Shown here: one piece after another, positions 26,669 through 34,571 of the stretch
Layout: each line of letters starts with the position of its first letter
Numbering within the stretch: the stretch's first letter is position 1
From: Shewanella livingstonensis
GTDB lineage: Bacteria > Pseudomonadota > Gammaproteobacteria > Enterobacterales > Shewanellaceae
Length of the DNA stretch: 64,000 nucleotides
Direction of reading: 5' to 3'
Assembly (NCBI RefSeq): GCF_003855395.1
Contig: NZ_CP034015.1
Coordinates: forward strand, 940,001 to 1,004,000
Made by a program: the position numbers and the translations under genes
The notes under the pieces: generated by a model
What the model was told of the DNA's origin: nothing
The model's input: the letters and a program-made list of their open reading frames with translations, nothing else
Database searches by the model: none

Positions 26669-27853
26669 TTACAGTGTGCTGGCCGCTGCGGCTATCATGG
26701 CTCTTATTTGTTCAACTATATCCGATTCTACTTGTGAATCGTAGCCTTTAATGCGTGGAGTATGAATGTGCCCTACCGGTAAATTCAAGTTAAATTGGTC
26801 ACGAAGTAAAATACTGCGATAGGAAATTTCATTAGATAAATAACCGCCACCAGAACCTTCTACTGAAATTTCATTTTGTAATTCAGCCAGTGATGACGCC
26901 TTAAATTGCCCTCTAGATAACGTGTTAATCTGGTTATTATCATTAACACTCCAGTGGCCTTTTACTGCTGCCATAGCTTCAACCGGCAGCGAAAATTGCA
27001 CGAACTCTGGACCATTTAATTTACCATCACTTGAGGTGCCACCGTTAAATAATGGTGCTTTAGGGTTGCTATGACTGGCGCCGGTTAATACATTTAAATT
27101 GTCTGGAGCTTCTGCACTGCGGTTACGTCCAGGAAAACGCTCAATGTCGAAATTGTCACGACCCATGCTAATGGTAAATACCATGTCGACACTGTGGTCT
27201 CGATAAAAAGGCGTCAGTAATGATTCAATAATGCCATTGTCGAAATCGCTATATCTAACTGGGATCATTACCGTTTCAATTTGAGCCATTTTGCCATTCA
27301 CTTTAAAACGATACCCGTCTAATGCTAGCGCGGCTAAACCTGACGGGTTACTTTGGCCAATATTTCTATCAAGAAAAAACGGGTCAAAACCGGTTACTAA
27401 AATATTAATTTGGCTGTCGGGTGAGAATTCAATATCGCTAAAACCACGAGAGGATTTCTCTACCGCTTTGACCAAGATATCTCGTTGCCAGTCGGCCAGA
27501 TTAAATCCAGCTCGTTCTTGTTTTAAGACGTTACGCATACTTAAACGACTCCAGTATAAGGAGCGATCGTCACTGTGACCAGATTGTACATCTCGCACAG
27601 CTTGCTGCCATAACCTATGCCCTTGATGCGCCGCCATTTCAGTCACAGCTAATTCATCTGTGGAGTGGCTTAACTCAACCTCCAGAGTATCACTGATAGC
27701 TTGATAGCGATTAACTACATGAGGCATTGTTTGCCCAGCCTTCGATACACGCATCTCTTCGACGTTTTTTGGGAGTTGCCCTGCAATAACTGCATTCGAT
27801 AACGTGACTAATGCCAATGAACTTAACATTATAAAAGCACTGTGTTTAATCAT
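26669..27853 (-). CDS. Secreted pyroglutamyl-peptidase-I-like protein with Cys-to-Ser replacement
   Basis: A 394-residue protein with a signal peptide (~1-24, cut near AVIAG). Residues ~149-368 form a peptidase C15-like domain: ILVTGFDPF (~151-159) matches the start of pyroglutamyl peptidase I, NFDIERF carries the conserved Glu (E238) and VGHIHTPRI the catalytic His (H364). Where family members have YVCNH with the nucleophile Cys, this protein has YLSNE (S340). The N-terminal ~125 residues are an extra region of unknown function. Pcp enzymes are normally cytosolic and about 210 residues, so export, size and the missing Cys all differ. It could be a Ser-type hydrolase or an inactive binder. 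Confidence 0.75.
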   Translation of the reverse strand: MIKHSAFIMLSSLALVTLSNAVIAGQLPKNVEEMRVSKAGQTMPHVVNRYQAISDTLEVELSHSTDELAVTEMAAHQGHRLWQQAVRDVQSGHSDDRSLYWSRLSMRNVLKQERAGFNLADWQRDILVKAVEKSSRGFSDIEFSPDSQINILVTGFDPFFLDRNIGQSNPSGLAALALDGYRFKVNGKMAQIETVMIPVRYSDFDNGIIESLLTPFYRDHSVDMVFTISMGRDNFDIERFPGRNRSAEAPDNLNVLTGASHSNPKAPLFNGGTSSDGKLNGPEFVQFSLPVEAMAAVKGHWSVNDNNQINTLSRGQFKASSLAELQNEISVEGSGGGYLSNEISYRSILLRDQFNLNLPVGHIHTPRIKGYDSQVESDIVEQIRAMIAAAASTL

Positions 27854-28476: not shown

Positions 28477-29802
28477 ATGGAACCATTATTAATGGCAGGT
28501 TCTCAGTGTAATGAGCTAAATGATGTACTTTCTCGATTACACTTTGAGCTTCACTATATTGACAAATATGATAAAAATAAAATACCCATCAATTGTGCTC
28601 TATGCTTAATCGATCTACGAAAAGAAAATACTATTAATGAAATCAATTACCTGGCTAGAGAGTTAGACCAGGGGATCCATATTATTGTACTTATCAATAA
28701 AGCTCAGCTGGACAATACCGACATTACCACTTTTATTGCCCAATTTGCTTGGGACTTTTGCACTAGCCCAATTGATCCTGAAAGATTAGATAAGTGCTTG
28801 GGTCATGGCATCGGCTTATCTAAATTAAAGCAACAGCATCACGCTCCACAGCTTGAGCCATCGAATAAAGACCCCGAACAACCTGCGTACCAATCGGATG
28901 TAATGCAACAGTTATTCCGTCAAGTTGATCGAGTTGCTCCTACTGATATCCCAGTGCTTATCCGAGGTGAATCTGGCACAGGTAAAGAATTAGTCGCTAC
29001 CAAACTACACCAACTGTCTGCTAGAAAAGATGGCCCTTTTATTACCGTTAATTGTGGCGCTATGGCGGCAGGATTGATTCAGTCAGATTTATTTGGTCAT
29101 CAGAAAGGAGCTTTTACTGGGGCGACTAGTACCAGAAAAGGCAAAATTGCATTGGCAGATGGTGGCACATTATTTTTAGATGAAATTGGCGATTTACCCG
29201 CTGAACTGCAAGTTAATTTACTGCGTTTTTTACAAGAAGGCTTGTACGACTCTGTTGGTGGTGGTACACCACAATCTGCTGATGTTCGTATTTTAGCCGC
29301 AACTCATGTTGACTTAGAAAATGCCATCGATCAGGGTAATTTTAGGTTAGATCTCTATTATCGTTTAAATGGCATTACCATTGAAACCCCACGTTTAAAA
29401 ACAAGACGTGATGATATTATCAGTTTAGCTAATCGATTTGTGCGGGTGTATTCCAATGAATATGGACTTGCTATTAAGCCGTTGTCGCAATCTGCTTGCC
29501 ATGCATTGTTAAATTATCCATGGCCTGGCAATGTGCGCGAGTTAATTAATCGTGTTCGTCGTGCTGTTGTATTGTGCGATACGCAGCAAATAAGTGCGCA
29601 AAACCTAGAGCTCGCTAATATCGATAAAAAACGTCATATCGCTCTGTCGCTGAAAACCTTAAAAGACAATGCTGAAAAACAAGCATTACAACAAGCCATC
29701 ATGATTGCCGACGGTCAAGTTGAGCTAGCAGCAAGTTATTTAGATATTTCTAGAGCAACCTTTTATCGGCTCATGGATAAGCATGACTTACCACTAATCT
29801 AA
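28477..29802 (+). CDS. Sigma-54 activator (VpsR-like), putative regulator of the fap operon
   Basis: A 441-residue bacterial enhancer-binding protein. The N-terminal ~115 residues are receiver-like with a candidate acceptor Asp in CLIDLRKE, but the motif is atypical. The AAA+ domain (~140-375) has Walker A RGESGTGKE, an intact sigma-54 contact loop FGHQKGAFTGATS, Walker B GGTLFLDEIGDLP and WPGNVRELINRVRRA. The C-terminal Fis-type helix-turn-helix is AASYLDISRATFYRLM (~420-435). Layout and N terminus resemble Vibrio VpsR. The intact GAFTGA loop argues for genuine sigma-54 activation. It is 222 bp upstream of fapB, whose leader has a -24/-12 promoter and twin palindromes, so I infer that it activates that operon. 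Confidence 0.85.
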   Translation: MEPLLMAGSQCNELNDVLSRLHFELHYIDKYDKNKIPINCALCLIDLRKENTINEINYLARELDQGIHIIVLINKAQLDNTDITTFIAQFAWDFCTSPIDPERLDKCLGHGIGLSKLKQQHHAPQLEPSNKDPEQPAYQSDVMQQLFRQVDRVAPTDIPVLIRGESGTGKELVATKLHQLSARKDGPFITVNCGAMAAGLIQSDLFGHQKGAFTGATSTRKGKIALADGGTLFLDEIGDLPAELQVNLLRFLQEGLYDSVGGGTPQSADVRILAATHVDLENAIDQGNFRLDLYYRLNGITIETPRLKTRRDDIISLANRFVRVYSNEYGLAIKPLSQSACHALLNYPWPGNVRELINRVRRAVVLCDTQQISAQNLELANIDKKRHIALSLKTLKDNAEKQALQQAIMIADGQVELAASYLDISRATFYRLMDKHDLPLI

Positions 29803-29843
29803 TCTTGTTAATATGGTGTTCCCCACTCCGTTTACTTATCGAG

Positions 29844-29857
29844 TCTTAATATTAAGA
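29844..29857. promoter_or_regulatory. Palindromic putative activator site 1 upstream of fapB
   Basis: A perfect 14-bp palindrome, TCTTAATATTAAGA, centred about 151 bp upstream of the expected sigma-54 start. It has the form TCTTAA-N2-TTAAGA, shared with site 2. Binding by the adjacent activator is inferred. Confidence 0.6.
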
Positions 29858-29905
29858 TTAAGCTGATATTTAAAATTAATATGTATATCAATATCCTAGT
29901 CATTT

Positions 29906-29927
29906 ATATTCTTAATTTTAAGAATAT
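29906..29927. promoter_or_regulatory. Palindromic putative activator site 2 upstream of fapB
   Basis: A perfect 10-bp inverted repeat with a 2-base spacer (ATATTCTTAA / TTAAGAATAT). Its core TCTTAATTTTAAGA differs from site 1 by two bases at the centre. The centre is 66 bp from site 1 and about 85 bp upstream of the expected start, a typical enhancer distance for sigma-54 activators. Confidence 0.65.
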
Positions 29928-29974
29928 CAAATCATCAAAAAAACTATCTATTTGAAATATATAAACTTTCATTG

Positions 29975-29991
29975 TTGGCATAAGGGTTGCT
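29975..29991 (+). promoter_or_regulatory. Sigma-54 (-24/-12) promoter of the fap operon
   Basis: TTGGCATAAGGGTTGCT matches the consensus TGGCAC-N5-TTGC with one mismatch (T for C) and exact GG-to-GC spacing. Transcription would start near base 30002, with the fapB ribosome-binding site (GAAAGGAA) and ATG 30025 following directly. It lies downstream of a sigma-54 activator gene. Confidence 0.82.
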
Positions 29992-30024
29992 ACACCCTTG
30001 TATCAAGTATGAAAGGAACATCTT

Positions 30025-30642
30025 ATGGATATCATTAGCAGACCATATTGCAACTTATTGCAATTGTCATTGAAACGAGGAATACAGCTAAGTGTGTTAT
30101 TGCTGGCTACCCATTCTTACGCTGATGATTCGAGTGTGATTGGCTCACATGTAATGCAAGGAGCAGGTCGAGCAAGTATCAATCAAGCCGCTGGCGATTT
30201 TAATATTCAGTCTAATAGTCACGCTTTAGGTTACAGCACATCCATAGAAACTATTAATTATAGTCAGTTACCTCAATCGGCCTCACCATCAGAGCCCAAT
30301 AAGCAACGCCTTACGGTAATAGACAGTCAAGCTTTTGCGTTATTTCAGGGGCTAGCGAGTATTAACCAAGTGAGTGGTGAGCTAAACATGCAAGCCAATA
30401 TTGGCAGTATTGCCATGGACTCGACCCTCGAAACCATTATGGGCCTGGGGCTAAATGATCAAGCGTTAACTCAAGTATCGAGTCAGTTGGCGCCATCATC
30501 TTATCAATTATCACACTATCAGGCCGAAATTGCTCCAGACAGTTTTTTGGATGCACAAGGCGTGATGCAAGTTAATCAAATTTCTGGCGATAACAATGTT
30601 GCCATTAACCAGTTCTCGTTGCAGTTACCAAGCGGGAATTAA
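30025..30642 (+). CDS. fapB: Fap functional amyloid minor subunit, FapB-like
   Basis: A 205-residue secreted protein. Signal peptide ~1-33 (LSVLLLATHSYA). Three imperfect repeats with the Fap pattern xINQxxGxxNxQxN occur at ~46-68 (ASINQAAGDFNIQSNSHAL), ~108-129 (ASINQVSGELNMQANIGSI) and ~178-199 (MQVNQISGDNNVAINQFSL), joined by ~40-50-residue linkers. In Pseudomonas FapB and FapC share such repeats. FapB is the smaller protein, proposed to nucleate fibres. The size and the short linkers suggest FapB. It could instead be called a FapA/B hybrid because no separate fapA is present. It is the first gene behind the sigma-54 promoter. Confidence 0.8.
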   Translation: MDIISRPYCNLLQLSLKRGIQLSVLLLATHSYADDSSVIGSHVMQGAGRASINQAAGDFNIQSNSHALGYSTSIETINYSQLPQSASPSEPNKQRLTVIDSQAFALFQGLASINQVSGELNMQANIGSIAMDSTLETIMGLGLNDQALTQVSSQLAPSSYQLSHYQAEIAPDSFLDAQGVMQVNQISGDNNVAINQFSLQLPSGN

Positions 30643-30667
30643 TAATCATCGATCGGAGGAATGGAAG

Positions 30668-31738
30668 ATGAAAAAGCTAACTTTAGTGCTAAGCATTGCA
30701 GCAATAATGAGTGGTTCTGCATATGCAAATGGAATGTCAGATACAGACAGTAGTGTCGAACTAGACAAAAAAATAGATGTATCGAAAGAACTAAAATATA
30801 AAGGTAAAGTGACCATTGAAGGTAATATCACTGCAAATGGTTTAGGCATGGCTGTAGTTGAAAACGTGCAGGAAACTAGCGCGAATATGGTTGAAAACTA
30901 CTATCACGATAATGACGCTAAGATATCTGGTAACGCATTTGAGAACTCTAGCGGTAACATTGGTGTTAACCAAGCGGCAGGTGATTTTAATGCTCAAAGT
31001 AATTCTGCTGCGTTAGCCTCTATTGATGCCGGTTTTGCCTTCGGCTCTGGTGATGCTGAAATCTTTAGTACTCAAATGGGTGGGTTTAATGGTGTGTGGA
31101 ATGAGGCATCAACTAACACATCAACTATTGATGGTGCTTCATTTATGAATGCCACAGGTAATATTGGTGTCAATGTTGCTGCTGGTAACAACAATATTCA
31201 AGCTAATAATATGGCTGCGTCTTCGTACAATGGACGTTTAGGCGAAGCAAGTGTGTCTAATGTGCAAAGTACTGGACATAACGGCACTATGAATATAGGT
31301 GTCGTTCAAAATGATGTTGAATACATCGATGTGAATCTTGCCCTTAATGGCGGAGGAACTTATGAAGGTACGTCTGCGTTAAATGATGCTTATTATCCTG
31401 AAATTATTTTAGAAGGGGATGGGGAGCATAATTCAGGGACAGGAACTGTAGTGGGTCATGTTGATTTTGATACAGAAAACCCATCTGGTGCTGAAGTAAT
31501 GACCTTTGATGAAGAAGGCGATTTAGCGCTTAATGGCACCGTGAGTGGCCAATTGCCATTCTTTATACAAACGGTGGTTCAGAAGTCTAATAACACTTCA
31601 TTATTAGCAGGTAGCGCTTTCCAAAATGCATCGGGTAACATTGGTGTTAACTTAGCAAGTGGTACGGGTAACCTTCAGTCAAATAACCTTGCTTTAACAA
31701 GCATTACGGGTCCTGCAGATATCATTTCTGGTGAATAA
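30668..31738 (+). CDS. fapC: Fap functional amyloid major subunit, FapC-like
   Basis: A 356-residue secreted protein from ATG 30668 (Shine-Dalgarno CGGAGGA at 30655-30661); an earlier in-frame start would overlap fapB and mask the signal peptide (KKLTLVLSIAAIMSGSAYA). Three repeats: ~95-116 (GNIGVNQAAGDFNAQSNSAA), ~163-184 (GNIGVNVAAGNNNIQANNMA) and ~322-343 (GNIGVNLASGTGNLQSNNLA), with linkers of about 46 and 137 residues. The sequence is rich in Asn, Gly, Ala and Ser, very poor in Lys/Arg after the N terminus, and contains no Cys. In Pseudomonas FapC is the main fibre protein of the biofilm amyloid. The repeats here are better conserved than those of fapB. Confidence 0.88.
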   Translation: MKKLTLVLSIAAIMSGSAYANGMSDTDSSVELDKKIDVSKELKYKGKVTIEGNITANGLGMAVVENVQETSANMVENYYHDNDAKISGNAFENSSGNIGVNQAAGDFNAQSNSAALASIDAGFAFGSGDAEIFSTQMGGFNGVWNEASTNTSTIDGASFMNATGNIGVNVAAGNNNIQANNMAASSYNGRLGEASVSNVQSTGHNGTMNIGVVQNDVEYIDVNLALNGGGTYEGTSALNDAYYPEIILEGDGEHNSGTGTVVGHVDFDTENPSGAEVMTFDEEGDLALNGTVSGQLPFFIQTVVQKSNNTSLLAGSAFQNASGNIGVNLASGTGNLQSNNLALTSITGPADIISGE

Positions 31739-31765
31739 AGACCTAATGATACGTTCTGAATAAGG

Positions 31766-31784
31766 CAGGGGGGCAACCCCCCTG
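31766..31784 (+). promoter_or_regulatory. Intraoperon GC-rich hairpin between fapC and fapD
   Basis: A perfect 8-bp stem CAGGGGGG/CCCCCCTG with a 3-base loop, with no T-run after it. It ends 9 bases before the fapD ATG and contains the only purine-rich Shine-Dalgarno-like sequence there. It may protect the fapC 3' end and reduce fapD translation. Weak termination is an alternative. Confidence 0.65.
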
Positions 31785-31793
31785 ATTCATCTT

Positions 31794-32498
31794 ATGCGCG
31801 ACATAACCAATTTAATGATCGCACTGCTGATCATGTCCAGTTTTAGTCTCACTTATTATTGCTACGCAGCAGATATTCCCTTAACCGGTGTCGTACCAGG
31901 AATGGGCACATACTCTAAGTCGATTCAAAGTATTCGTGAACGTAAATTTGAACACGTTATCGAACAAAAAACTGATTTTTCATGTGGTGCTGCCAGTTTG
32001 GCTAGTCTGCTGAAATTTGCTTATGACCGACATGAGATGAATGAGCAAAAAGTATTAATTGGCATGTTAGAACATGCCGATCTGACATTAGTACAAGAGC
32101 AAGGATTTTCGCTGCTTAATATGAAACGGTATCTACAATCTCAAGGGTTAAGAGGTCGAGGATATAAAGTGGGCGAAGCCGAAATGTTGTTGCTTAAAAT
32201 TCCTGCCATTGTGTTACTTAATGATGGTGGCTATAGCCACTTTGTGGTTTTTCGTCGTCATGAGCGCGGAGAAGTTTATTTAGGCGATCCTGCTTTGGGT
32301 AACCGGATTATGACAATGGATGAGTTTAATCAGAAGTGGAATGGCGTTGTATTTGTGGTTATTGGACAAGAGTATCAACGTGATAATCCATTACTACATC
32401 CAAGAGCAAAACTAACGTTTAAAGCACTCGATCCGCTTTCACCAATGACCGATGCCGAGCTACTCGAATTTGGTTTCTCTTATTCAGATATGCTTTAA
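31794..32498 (+). CDS. fapD: FapD-like C39-family cysteine peptidase
   Basis: A 234-residue protein with an N-terminal export signal or membrane anchor (~4-25). A C39 peptidase-like domain carries the nucleophile Cys in TDFSCGAASLA (C64), His in GGYSHFVVFR (H149) and Asp in LGDPALGN (D165), so the catalytic triad is complete. FapD in Pseudomonas belongs to the same fold and is needed for Fap fibre export. Its substrate is thought to be another Fap component. No Shine-Dalgarno is exposed before the ATG. A stable hairpin covers the purine tract there. Confidence 0.87.
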   Translation: MRDITNLMIALLIMSSFSLTYYCYAADIPLTGVVPGMGTYSKSIQSIRERKFEHVIEQKTDFSCGAASLASLLKFAYDRHEMNEQKVLIGMLEHADLTLVQEQGFSLLNMKRYLQSQGLRGRGYKVGEAEMLLLKIPAIVLLNDGGYSHFVVFRRHERGEVYLGDPALGNRIMTMDEFNQKWNGVVFVVIGQEYQRDNPLLHPRAKLTFKALDPLSPMTDAELLEFGFSYSDML

Positions 32499-32508
32499 GG
32501 AGGAAGGT

Positions 32509-33222
32509 ATGAAATTAAGCATGATGCTATTGCTAACTATCACTACACCAGTGATGGCTAGTTCACCCTCACTGTCTGTATTTCAACACAGCCAAATACT
32601 GACAGACTTTGAACTTGAGTCCATGAAAGGTAAATACACTAATAATGGCCAAGATTATTATTTCGGCTTACAAATGCAAACTCAGTTTATTCAAGACAAT
32701 GGCACTCAACAACAAGTTGGTATGCAAATCGAATTTGCTCAAGTTGATAATCAACCTTTGATAAGTATTACCATTAGCGATCCCAATGTTATAGATAGTC
32801 AAAATGGCTTTCAGCTGGATACCTTAGGACAAGCGGCAGGATTACAACAACGAATTCAAATTGCCGGAGATGAGAACCTGGCCGTTAATGAATTTGATAT
32901 GGCCCAAGGCCGATTAACTCCCATGTTACAGGGTATTAATATTGCAGTGGGAACAACACTCGTTAGTGATAATAGCAACACTACGTTTTCGGCTAACGCT
33001 AACACTATTGGTTATCAGGTTCAGTTGGCTTCGGGTAAGGCAAGCCAGGGTATTAGCTACCAAGATGGCAATGGCCAGTTGGTGCAGAGCATTTTTATTA
33101 ATGGACTCAGTCACGGAGTAATAAACCAGTCTACAATAAGGTATGACGGTATGCCTGTTGGACCAATACAGTCAAATATACTTGGAAGGCAAATCAGTGA
33201 TTTAACCGCAATAGGATTTTAA
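32509..33222 (+). CDS. fapE: FapE-like amyloid-associated secreted protein
   Basis: A 237-residue protein from ATG 32509, supported by an AGGAGGAAGG ribosome-binding site; an earlier in-frame ATG lies within fapD. Signal peptide ~1-18 (KLSMMLLLTITTPVMA). The mature part is strand-rich and Gln/Asn/Ser-rich with a Gly-Gln-Ala segment (LGQAAGLQQRIQIAGDENLAVNEF as a block, ~106-129) that looks like a weak Fap repeat. Size, order and export signal match FapE, a minor fibre-associated protein in Pseudomonas. The sequence alone is not diagnostic. The operon position carries the call. Confidence 0.75.
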   Translation: MKLSMMLLLTITTPVMASSPSLSVFQHSQILTDFELESMKGKYTNNGQDYYFGLQMQTQFIQDNGTQQQVGMQIEFAQVDNQPLISITISDPNVIDSQNGFQLDTLGQAAGLQQRIQIAGDENLAVNEFDMAQGRLTPMLQGINIAVGTTLVSDNSNTTFSANANTIGYQVQLASGKASQGISYQDGNGQLVQSIFINGLSHGVINQSTIRYDGMPVGPIQSNILGRQISDLTAIGF

Positions 33223-33251
33223 TTCATTCTGTACAAGCCAAGGATGTATAT

Positions 33252-34571
33252 ATGAATAAGAAATGGACCTCAGCTGTCGCAGTAATACTGCCTGGAATAT
33301 TGGCTGTACCTGCGTATGCTGCAGAGACTGATTCTCAACTAACCTCTCAATCGACGCTATCTGAACAAGATATTACAGAACTTAAACAAAAGTTGATTCA
33401 GTTAAACCAACAAATTAAGTTACAGCAACAAACTATTAATCAGATGGCACAACAGGTGCTTAAGCAAGAGGCGTTAAACCGGCAAAGTAGTCCGGAAAAT
33501 GTCGCATCTTCAACTCAACAAACTACTCAACCAACAACTCAACAACCAGTAGAAAGACCCCAGGTACAATCAACTCAACAAGCTGCAATCGCGAGTGATA
33601 CAACGAAACGGAAAAAAGCCCCAGATAGAGCAAGAAGTACTGATGATGTTTTGCAAGAAGCACATAACGTCTTTTCTCGGAAGTTCACCGTAGAACCCTC
33701 ATTTACCTATAGCTATTACAGCCGTAAAGATCTAATTCTTAGAGGGTTCTTAGCGCTTGATGCTATTTTTCTGGGTAATTTAAACCTAGACCGTATCCGC
33801 ACTAATACGACTAGACTCGATCTTACTACCCGCTACACATTAAATGAAAACTGGCAGTTTGAGCTTGGTTTACCGTACCTGTATCGCTGGACTCAGTATG
33901 ACTCAGTGGGAGAGGGGAACTCTAGTCAGCGATATGAAACGGCTAAAATTAGTGGTGGTCAAATTGGTGATGTTAGTGGTGCTGTTTATTACCGCATTAA
34001 TACTGAATCTGTAGACTGGCCCGATTGGGTGTGGAACTTTAGGGTTCGCGCGCCAACTGGAAAGAATCCTTTTGGGATCCCGCTTGAAACATCCGCTACA
34101 GGTAATTTAACCTACCCTACAGAAATGGCTACGGGATCAGGTGTTTGGGGGGTATCGACAGGGTTTAGTTTAGCAAAAACTTTTGATCCTGCGATTGTAT
34201 TTTTTAATTTAAATTACGGTGCTAGTTTTAAAGAAAGCTTTGATGACTTGTCCGGTTCGAGCGGGTTAAGTCCTGGTGAAATTGATTTAGGTAATTACCT
34301 CGATTACAGCGTGGGATTGGCTTTTGCGGTTTCAGAACGAATGAGTTTGAGCATGAGCTTTAATCAGCGGTTTTACAGTAAAACAAAACAAAGACCAGAA
34401 GGTGGGGAGTGGGAGAAAATCCCTCGTACTGACACCAATACCGCGAGTTTAGGTATTGGTGCTACGTTAGCGCTATCACCTAATTTATCGATGGTGACCT
34501 CTATAGGTGCAGGATTGACGGAAGACTCTCCAGACTATCAAATTAGCTTACGTTTTCCTTACCGTTTTTAG
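33252..34571 (+). CDS. fapF: FapF-like outer-membrane amyloid exporter
   Basis: A 439-residue protein with a signal peptide (~1-23), a short coiled coil rich in Gln/Leu (~40-75; LKQKLIQLNQQIKLQQQTIN), a Gln/Thr/Ser-rich disordered linker (~75-120), and a C-terminal beta-barrel of amphipathic strands (~145-439) ending in the outer-membrane signature FPYRF. In Pseudomonas FapF is a trimeric 12-stranded barrel plugged by an N-terminal helix with a coiled coil that gates secretion of FapB, FapC and FapE. The architecture matches and it is the last gene of the operon. An inverted repeat at ~34589-34635 without a T-run may end the transcript. Confidence 0.87.
   Translation: MNKKWTSAVAVILPGILAVPAYAAETDSQLTSQSTLSEQDITELKQKLIQLNQQIKLQQQTINQMAQQVLKQEALNRQSSPENVASSTQQTTQPTTQQPVERPQVQSTQQAAIASDTTKRKKAPDRARSTDDVLQEAHNVFSRKFTVEPSFTYSYYSRKDLILRGFLALDAIFLGNLNLDRIRTNTTRLDLTTRYTLNENWQFELGLPYLYRWTQYDSVGEGNSSQRYETAKISGGQIGDVSGAVYYRINTESVDWPDWVWNFRVRAPTGKNPFGIPLETSATGNLTYPTEMATGSGVWGVSTGFSLAKTFDPAIVFFNLNYGASFKESFDDLSGSSGLSPGEIDLGNYLDYSVGLAFAVSERMSLSMSFNQRFYSKTKQRPEGGEWEKIPRTDTNTASLGIGATLALSPNLSMVTSIGAGLTEDSPDYQISLRFPYRF

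Follow-up and report, generated by a model that had tools for sequence, protein, structure and literature searches.

A predicted Fap functional-amyloid operon of Shewanella livingstonensis with a linked VpsR-like sigma-54 activator and candidate control elements

The window analysed here, a stretch of 64,000 nucleotides of the Shewanella livingstonensis genome (contig NZ_CP034015.1, positions 940,001 to 1,004,000), carries between positions 28,477 and 34,571 a locus that its gene content identifies as a Shewanella fapBCDEF operon for Fap functional amyloid, preceded by the gene of a VpsR-like sigma-54 activator. In the model that we consider likely for this locus, the activator would act through twin palindromic boxes on a sigma-54 promoter to express the fap genes, and a stem-loop located after fapC would set an excess of the amyloid subunits. 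The model is built on the identities of the genes, their kept order, the fixed geometry of the boxes, a sequence resembling a sigma-54 promoter and a stem-loop that is conserved (Table 1).

Gene content of the operon

The six adjacent open reading frames (ORFs) of the original prediction, which had been made from the letters of this DNA, are all present in the ORF list of the window at the coordinates of Table 1. The profile search that it had proposed as a check returned NCBIfam matches to FapB, FapC, FapD, FapE and FapF in operon order, bearing out the gene order of a Pseudomonas Fap layout minus a separate fapA. Three Fap repeats (pattern G-x4-N-x3-G-x6-N) had been described for each subunit and were found in both, at residues 48, 109 and 179 of FapB and at residues 96, 164 and 323 of FapC. 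All three residues of the triad predicted for FapD are present, within the Peptidase_C39 match. For the 33252-34571 product, the barrel on which the original prediction had been made to depend was recovered, with residues 124-439 aligning with the solved FapF barrel (5o65, E=3.1e-80); the coiled coil of this protein is read from sequence only. The gene that had been called FapE-like keeps this name on the basis of a weak NCBIfam match and of its position in the operon. The likely start of fapC is at 30668, where GGAGGA precedes the ATG, and that of fapE is at 32509 (AGGAGGA before the ATG), the longest ORF beginning at 32452.

No ORF of 100 amino acids that could represent fapA is located between the activator gene and fapB, and the FapA model, which is insensitive (one weak hit in 26 genomes), was silent in 10/10 Shewanella fap genomes. 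Known Fap systems often do without this gene, so that its lack does not speak against membership of the family: in a survey of Fap operons, the absence of fapA is the commonest deviation, found in 6 of 16 genera (PMC3792158).

Table 1. Features of the fap locus, in coordinates of the window.
Feature	Position	Strand	Basis or remark
Sigma-54 activator, 441 amino acids: VpsR-type N-terminus, AAA+, Fis-type helix-turn-helix	28477..29802	+	Pfam, motifs, alignment
Distal palindromic box TCTTAATATTAAGA, candidate activator site	29844..29857	.	Centre about -151 from predicted start
Proximal palindromic box TCTTAATTTTAAGA, candidate activator site	29910..29923	.	Centre about -85
Sigma-54 promoter-like site TGGCATAAGGGTTGCT (-24/-12)	29976..29991	+	Sequence match
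fapB-like minor subunit, three Fap repeats	30025..30642	+	NCBIfam FapB 1.3e-16
fapC-like major subunit, three Fap repeats	30668..31738	+	NCBIfam FapC 1.2e-48; solved FapC 7.3e-11
Stem-loop 3' of fapC	31766..31784	+	Ends nine bases ahead of fapD start
fapD-like C39 peptidase, Cys64/His149/Asp165	31794..32498	+	NCBIfam FapD 1.1e-75; Pfam Peptidase_C39
fapE-like protein	32509..33222	+	NCBIfam FapE 2.6e-10 (weak); operon position; ribosome site
fapF-like exporter, coiled coil and beta-barrel	33252..34571	+	NCBIfam FapF 2.2e-113; solved FapF barrel 3.1e-80

The linked activator

The linked VpsR-like sigma-54 activator of the original prediction was confirmed by Pfam, the product of the first gene matching Sigma54_activat (226.5 bits), the AAA lid, HTH_8 and, with 41.4 bits for a cut-off of 23.7, the VpsR domain (PF20161), the latter as a partial match over profile positions 49-121. 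The protein retains the GAFTGA motif, Walker A, and Walker B including its DE residues. VpsR has lost GAFTGA (PMC3162934), and a VpsR-type protein of a relative from the same order (L070, 672 bits to solved VpsR) is without GAFTGA and without the Walker B DE. Since the activator keeps both, it should work with sigma-54, which VpsR should not. That the activator is a plain VpsR was considered and rejected, GAFTGA being retained. It is the one VpsR-domain protein of the S. livingstonensis genome, and a VpsR-domain protein is found at the fap locus of all ten strongly FapF-positive Shewanella genomes.

The linkage of activator and fap genes was followed through a sample of the class, in which 17 places other than the window's own had a FapF match of at least 307 bits and were studied as stretches of 9.4 to 19.9 kb. 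An activator homologue (39-47% identity) is located near fap in 16 of these 17 loci, one of them as a fragment at a contig end; the sole locus without it (L106) is also one in whose stretch neither fapB nor fapC was found. The 4.84-Mb genome of S. livingstonensis encodes about 16 full sigma-54 activator domains (20 matches, four of them weak), and by arithmetic from this domain count the chance of an activator in a random 20-kb stretch is about 7%, which would give about one among the 17 loci. With homologues near fap in 16 of the 17 other loci, the link between activator and fap is thus general and not specific to the window.

The VpsR domain was matched in 19 of 23 aligned activators, the window protein and VpsR included. 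A 47-row tree unites all 17 fap activators of Shewanella in a single group (100/99) but not the 15 from the class; VpsR is placed next to the Shewanella group (95/87), with a long branch, and we do not rely on this placement. The recognition helix reads SRAT in 7/7 Shewanella rows and in VpsR, and differs in 14 of the 15 class activators (SRVT, SRIT, SRCT, SRMT or SRVS). The tree also contains a group of VpsR-domain sigma-54 activators of Shewanella from genomes or places that lack fap, represented by L154 (3567-5773, minus strand), where the genes of the activator and of a DsbA-like protein overlap and a nearby 786-amino-acid protein has a sub-threshold match only.

Twin boxes and promoter-like site upstream of fapB

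The gap of 222 bp that separates the activator gene from fapB contains two exact copies of the palindrome TCTYAnnnnTRAGA, a result obtained in none of 100 shuffles of the window sequence. The distance from the distal to the proximal box is 66 bp, as is that from the proximal box to the -24/-12 site. The same geometry was scored in 18 Shewanella loci, comprising the window, nine further genomes and eight of 14 loci from a genome collection (excluding near-copies and a locus truncated at the end of a contig). These loci hold 33 exact boxes, at least one per locus, for 0.03 expected, with centres at -150 to -153 and at -83 to -87 from the predicted start. Both boxes are exact in 15 of the 18 loci; of the remaining three, one (L022) has an exact distal box and a proximal box with one mismatch, and two (L019 and L031) have the proximal box alone in the gap, with a one-mismatch box 65 bp farther upstream, inside the final part of the activator gene. 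In 18/18 loci a -24/-12-like site, with 9 to 12 of 12 matches, lies at the corresponding distance from the boxes. In the window, the twin elements and the promoter spacing fit what would be expected of an upstream activator array.

The exact box occurs at 12 places in the S. livingstonensis genome, two of them within the 222-bp gap, where 0.0006 would be expected by arithmetic from 12 sites per 4.84 Mb. These two have a -24/-12 site with 10/12 matches within 190 bp; none of the other ten is that close to a site with at least 10/12 matches (one has 9/12), and on this basis fap is likely to be the sole strong target in this genome. In the class, 15 loci were scanned, 13 of which had enough upstream sequence (L118 and L119 being too short). 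Promoter-like sites with at least 10/12 matches were found in 7 of these 13 loci, a count made without shuffle comparison, and perfect palindromes ahead of the promoter-like sites in 2 of 9 loci, without a control.

Stem-loop downstream of fapC

Stretches of 70 nucleotides following the stop codons of the fap genes were compared with 200 shuffles each in 33 loci, related loci among these not being independent. The mean z value after fapC was -3.05, with values below -2 in 24/33 loci (12/18 from Shewanella and 12/15 from the class). For the other genes the means were 0.05 after fapB (below -2 in 1/32), 0.17 after fapD (0/33), -0.24 after fapE (4/31) and -0.95 after fapF (10/33). The sequences of the fapC stems vary among lineages. 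Of 25 loci, 4 had at least five T in the eight bases following the stem, and 2 had a tail too short for this count. A terminator was considered for the stem-loop of the window and is not supported by its T content. No ribosome-binding sequence was found between this stem-loop and the fapD start; fapC and fapE have strong ones. The stem-loop probably lowers the output of fapD to fapF, by partial termination, by protection of the fapBC 3' end, or by covering the ribosome site of fapD.

In one class locus (L113, 5265-8048) fapC precedes fapB and a stem-loop, there with a long T run, still follows fapC, as if the structure travelled with this gene.

Distribution and genomic context

When FapF was searched against a genome collection, all 14 loci recovered belonged to Shewanella, a single-protein query reaching close relatives only. 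Of 60 Shewanella genomes, ten (S. livingstonensis included) matched FapF strongly (E 1e-75 or better), and another two matched it weakly, in its N-terminal part; none of 39 other genomes of the order showed a FapF match. The order C15-like gene, activator, fapBCDEF, lysR and fused carboxylase gene is common to nine further genomes of the genus, and because both order and neighbouring genes are kept there, the locus is far beyond what chance would give. The conserved neighbour on the activator side of the window (26669-27853, minus strand) encodes a protein of 394 amino acids with a partial match to pyroglutamyl peptidase (C15; Pfam, 1.4e-6, residues 150-253).

The LysR protein, used as a query, had matches in 37 of the 60 genus genomes, and of 30 loci examined, all from the genus, five contained fapF and 25 did not. 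In 22 of these 25 fap-less loci a C15-like gene is located at most 1.5 kb from lysR (in three it is not). As the neighbours are found paired where fap is missing, the fap block resembles a cassette, acquired or lost as a whole, with a conserved gene on either side.

In one of the nine further genomes of the genus (G035; L024, 5748-7063) a stop interrupts fapF, the remaining fap genes being matched over their full length; this is perhaps a natural loss of the exporter. Two class loci (L118 and L119) encode, among their subunits, proteins in which 8 and 10 Fap repeats were counted; fapF is located there several kb from the subunit genes and is directly followed by the activator. A FapF search of a plasmid collection matched 18 records, none covering 80% of FapF, among which is an Aeromonas record unannotated in the matching stretch. 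FapD had two matches among phage records; these carry the annotation NHLM-type peptidase and are 35% identical to FapD across 68% of the query.

Predicted mechanism and alternative explanations

The sequence of events that we propose would begin with c-di-GMP (cyclic di-GMP), which would probably load the activator via its VpsR-type N-terminal domain. An oligomer of the activator would bind the two palindromes 66 bp apart and, together with sigma-54 RNA polymerase, open the -24/-12 promoter ahead of fapB. The stem-loop after fapC would result in fapBC being made in excess over fapDEF, and FapB and FapC would be exported via FapF, with FapD and FapE assisting, to form a surface amyloid.

Several observations count against this picture. 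Every NCBIfam Fap match scores under its equivalog cut-off, that of FapE, the weakest Fap member, reaching 39.9 bits for a cut-off of 250; the FapF cut-off (700 bits) was passed by 0/369 genomes sampled from the class and may be tuned to proteins closely related to the members of the model. VpsR-domain proteins also occur without fap, 37 of 99 genomes exceeding the cut-off overall. The single -24/-12 site of the window is within chance when taken alone (shuffle mean 0.37; 32/100 shuffles had one), and the box is not enriched genome-wide (12 places for 11 with a backwards control), its clustering alone being significant. In a comparison of the box with the VpsR box, taken as TTCTCA-n4-TGAGAA, the seven exact TCTCA-n4-TGAGA places of one VpsR-bearing genome had no recognisable polysaccharide gene nearby, as judged by the first residues of the ORFs. 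The exact box was found in 1 of 13 class loci although the activators are homologous. In the window, the stem-loop is modest (z -2.19 over 70 nucleotides and -1.41 over 62 nucleotides, where 18/200 shuffles equalled it) and has no proper T run.

Some of these observations would suit other explanations. The box missing from nearly all class loci with similar activators might mean that the palindromes are sites of another regulator, which represses or modulates fap, the linked activator binding elsewhere. We hold this to be quite improbable, as centres at about -86 and -152 match the placement usual for sites of upstream activators (about 80-150 bp, PMC5552954), the box geometry is fixed across the 18 Shewanella loci, and the SRAT helix shared by Shewanella and VpsR, from which 14/15 class activators differ, fits a different box outside the genus. 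A signal other than c-di-GMP is also conceivable, in which case the Fap operon and its sigma-54 activator would stand as described and a divergent, receiver-like domain would sense phosphorylation or another ligand, in keeping with a Pfam VpsR match that is partial and modest. This is unlikely in our judgement, given that c-di-GMP is reported to be sensed by BrfA and bound by VpsR, that BrpR-dependent regulation tracks c-di-GMP levels, and that none of the eight proteins encoded from the C15-like gene to lysR matched a histidine kinase family.

The stem-loop, finally, may be a remnant or have arisen in the gap by chance, or may act on fapD translation only, without being a dosage device. Its modest stability against shuffles in the window and the small number of loci with a T run suited to termination fit this explanation, and as no ribosome-binding sequence lies between the stem-loop of the window and the fapD start, an effect on fapD translation is conceivable; the difference between the mean z after fapC and those after fapB and fapD, together with stem sequences that differ between lineages, speaks against it, and we lean against the non-dosage explanation while granting it a real minority chance. 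The model of an activator reading twin boxes at a sigma-54 promoter, with a stem-loop that sets subunit excess, is the one we retain as likely.

Significance and comparison with known systems

Part of what is described here is already in print, namely the occurrence of Fap in Shewanella, the frequent loss of fapA and, in Pseudomonas fluorescens, a sigma-54 fap activator, BrfA, described as sensing c-di-GMP. Fap systems were reported from three proteobacterial classes, with Shewanella among the genera that deviate from fapABCDEF (PMC3792158, Dueholm 2013). In Pseudomonas fluorescens PF07 the fapA promoter is of the RpoN type and an adjacent gene of 1,326 bp, brfA, encodes an RpoN-dependent regulator (PMC9207406); BrfA was later reported to sense c-di-GMP, and BrfA-type factors to be widespread in Pseudomonas (PMC13101488). 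Our literature search, with most subscription journals outside its reach, returned no report of a Shewanella fap regulator or of a fapC stem-loop. The class-wide linkage of the activator and the twin-box geometry were likewise not met in the literature searched.

The pairing of regulator and operon outside Pseudomonas makes the control of fap testable in many bacteria, the twin-box geometry offers a ready target for footprints and reporters, and the stem-loop provides a simple hypothesis for amyloid subunits that outnumber their exporter. In addition, the activator may throw light on the origin of VpsR from a family of sigma-54 activators. Tentatively, and as a set of statements that we think doubtful when taken jointly, Fap in the Gammaproteobacteria might generally be wired to its own VpsR/BrfA-type sigma-54 activator; that of Shewanella would be a sigma-54-competent sister of VpsR reading a 66-bp twin-palindrome switch, a class-wide fapC stem-loop would set subunit excess over the export machinery, and VpsR, which controls a polysaccharide matrix without sigma-54, would descend from a relative of the amyloid activators.

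The operon shares with Pseudomonas fapABCDEF the order of fapB to fapF, three repeats per subunit, a C39 FapD and a FapF with coiled coil and barrel, and differs from it by the lack of a detected fapA, by an activator gene located directly upstream and co-directional, and by a weak FapE match. In the available part of the Dueholm 2013 survey (PMC3792158), the sigma-54 activator, the twin boxes and the stem-loop are not treated. The original prediction had also proposed a switch that differs from Pseudomonas, and of this claim a weak form stands: the position of the activator gene differs, and perhaps the boxes, which are not present in 12 of 13 class loci; against it stand, in P. fluorescens PF07, a fapA promoter of the RpoN type and the brfA gene next to fap. 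The difference is mostly not one of kind. Compared by description and not by sequence, BrfA and the window activator are alike in being RpoN-dependent regulators, as predicted for the latter, encoded beside fap by an ORF of 1,326 bp, and in a fap promoter, known in the window as a sequence match, of the -24/-12 type; the brfA gene is located downstream of fap and reversed, whereas that of the window is upstream and co-directional.

BerB of Burkholderia cenocepacia is likewise a sigma-54 activator acting on the biofilm matrix; it binds c-di-GMP and depends on RpoN, but is reported to be without an N-terminal input domain and controls exopolysaccharide, not amyloid (PMC5552954). BrpR of Vibrio vulnificus is a VpsR homologue that binds a palindromic site in which the fifth C and the twelfth G matter (PMC8268162). 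With VpsR of V. cholerae and BrpR the window activator has in common a VpsR-type N-terminal domain and a similar recognition helix (SRAT.YRL..KH); it differs from VpsR, which is without GAFTGA and the Walker B DE, in keeping both.

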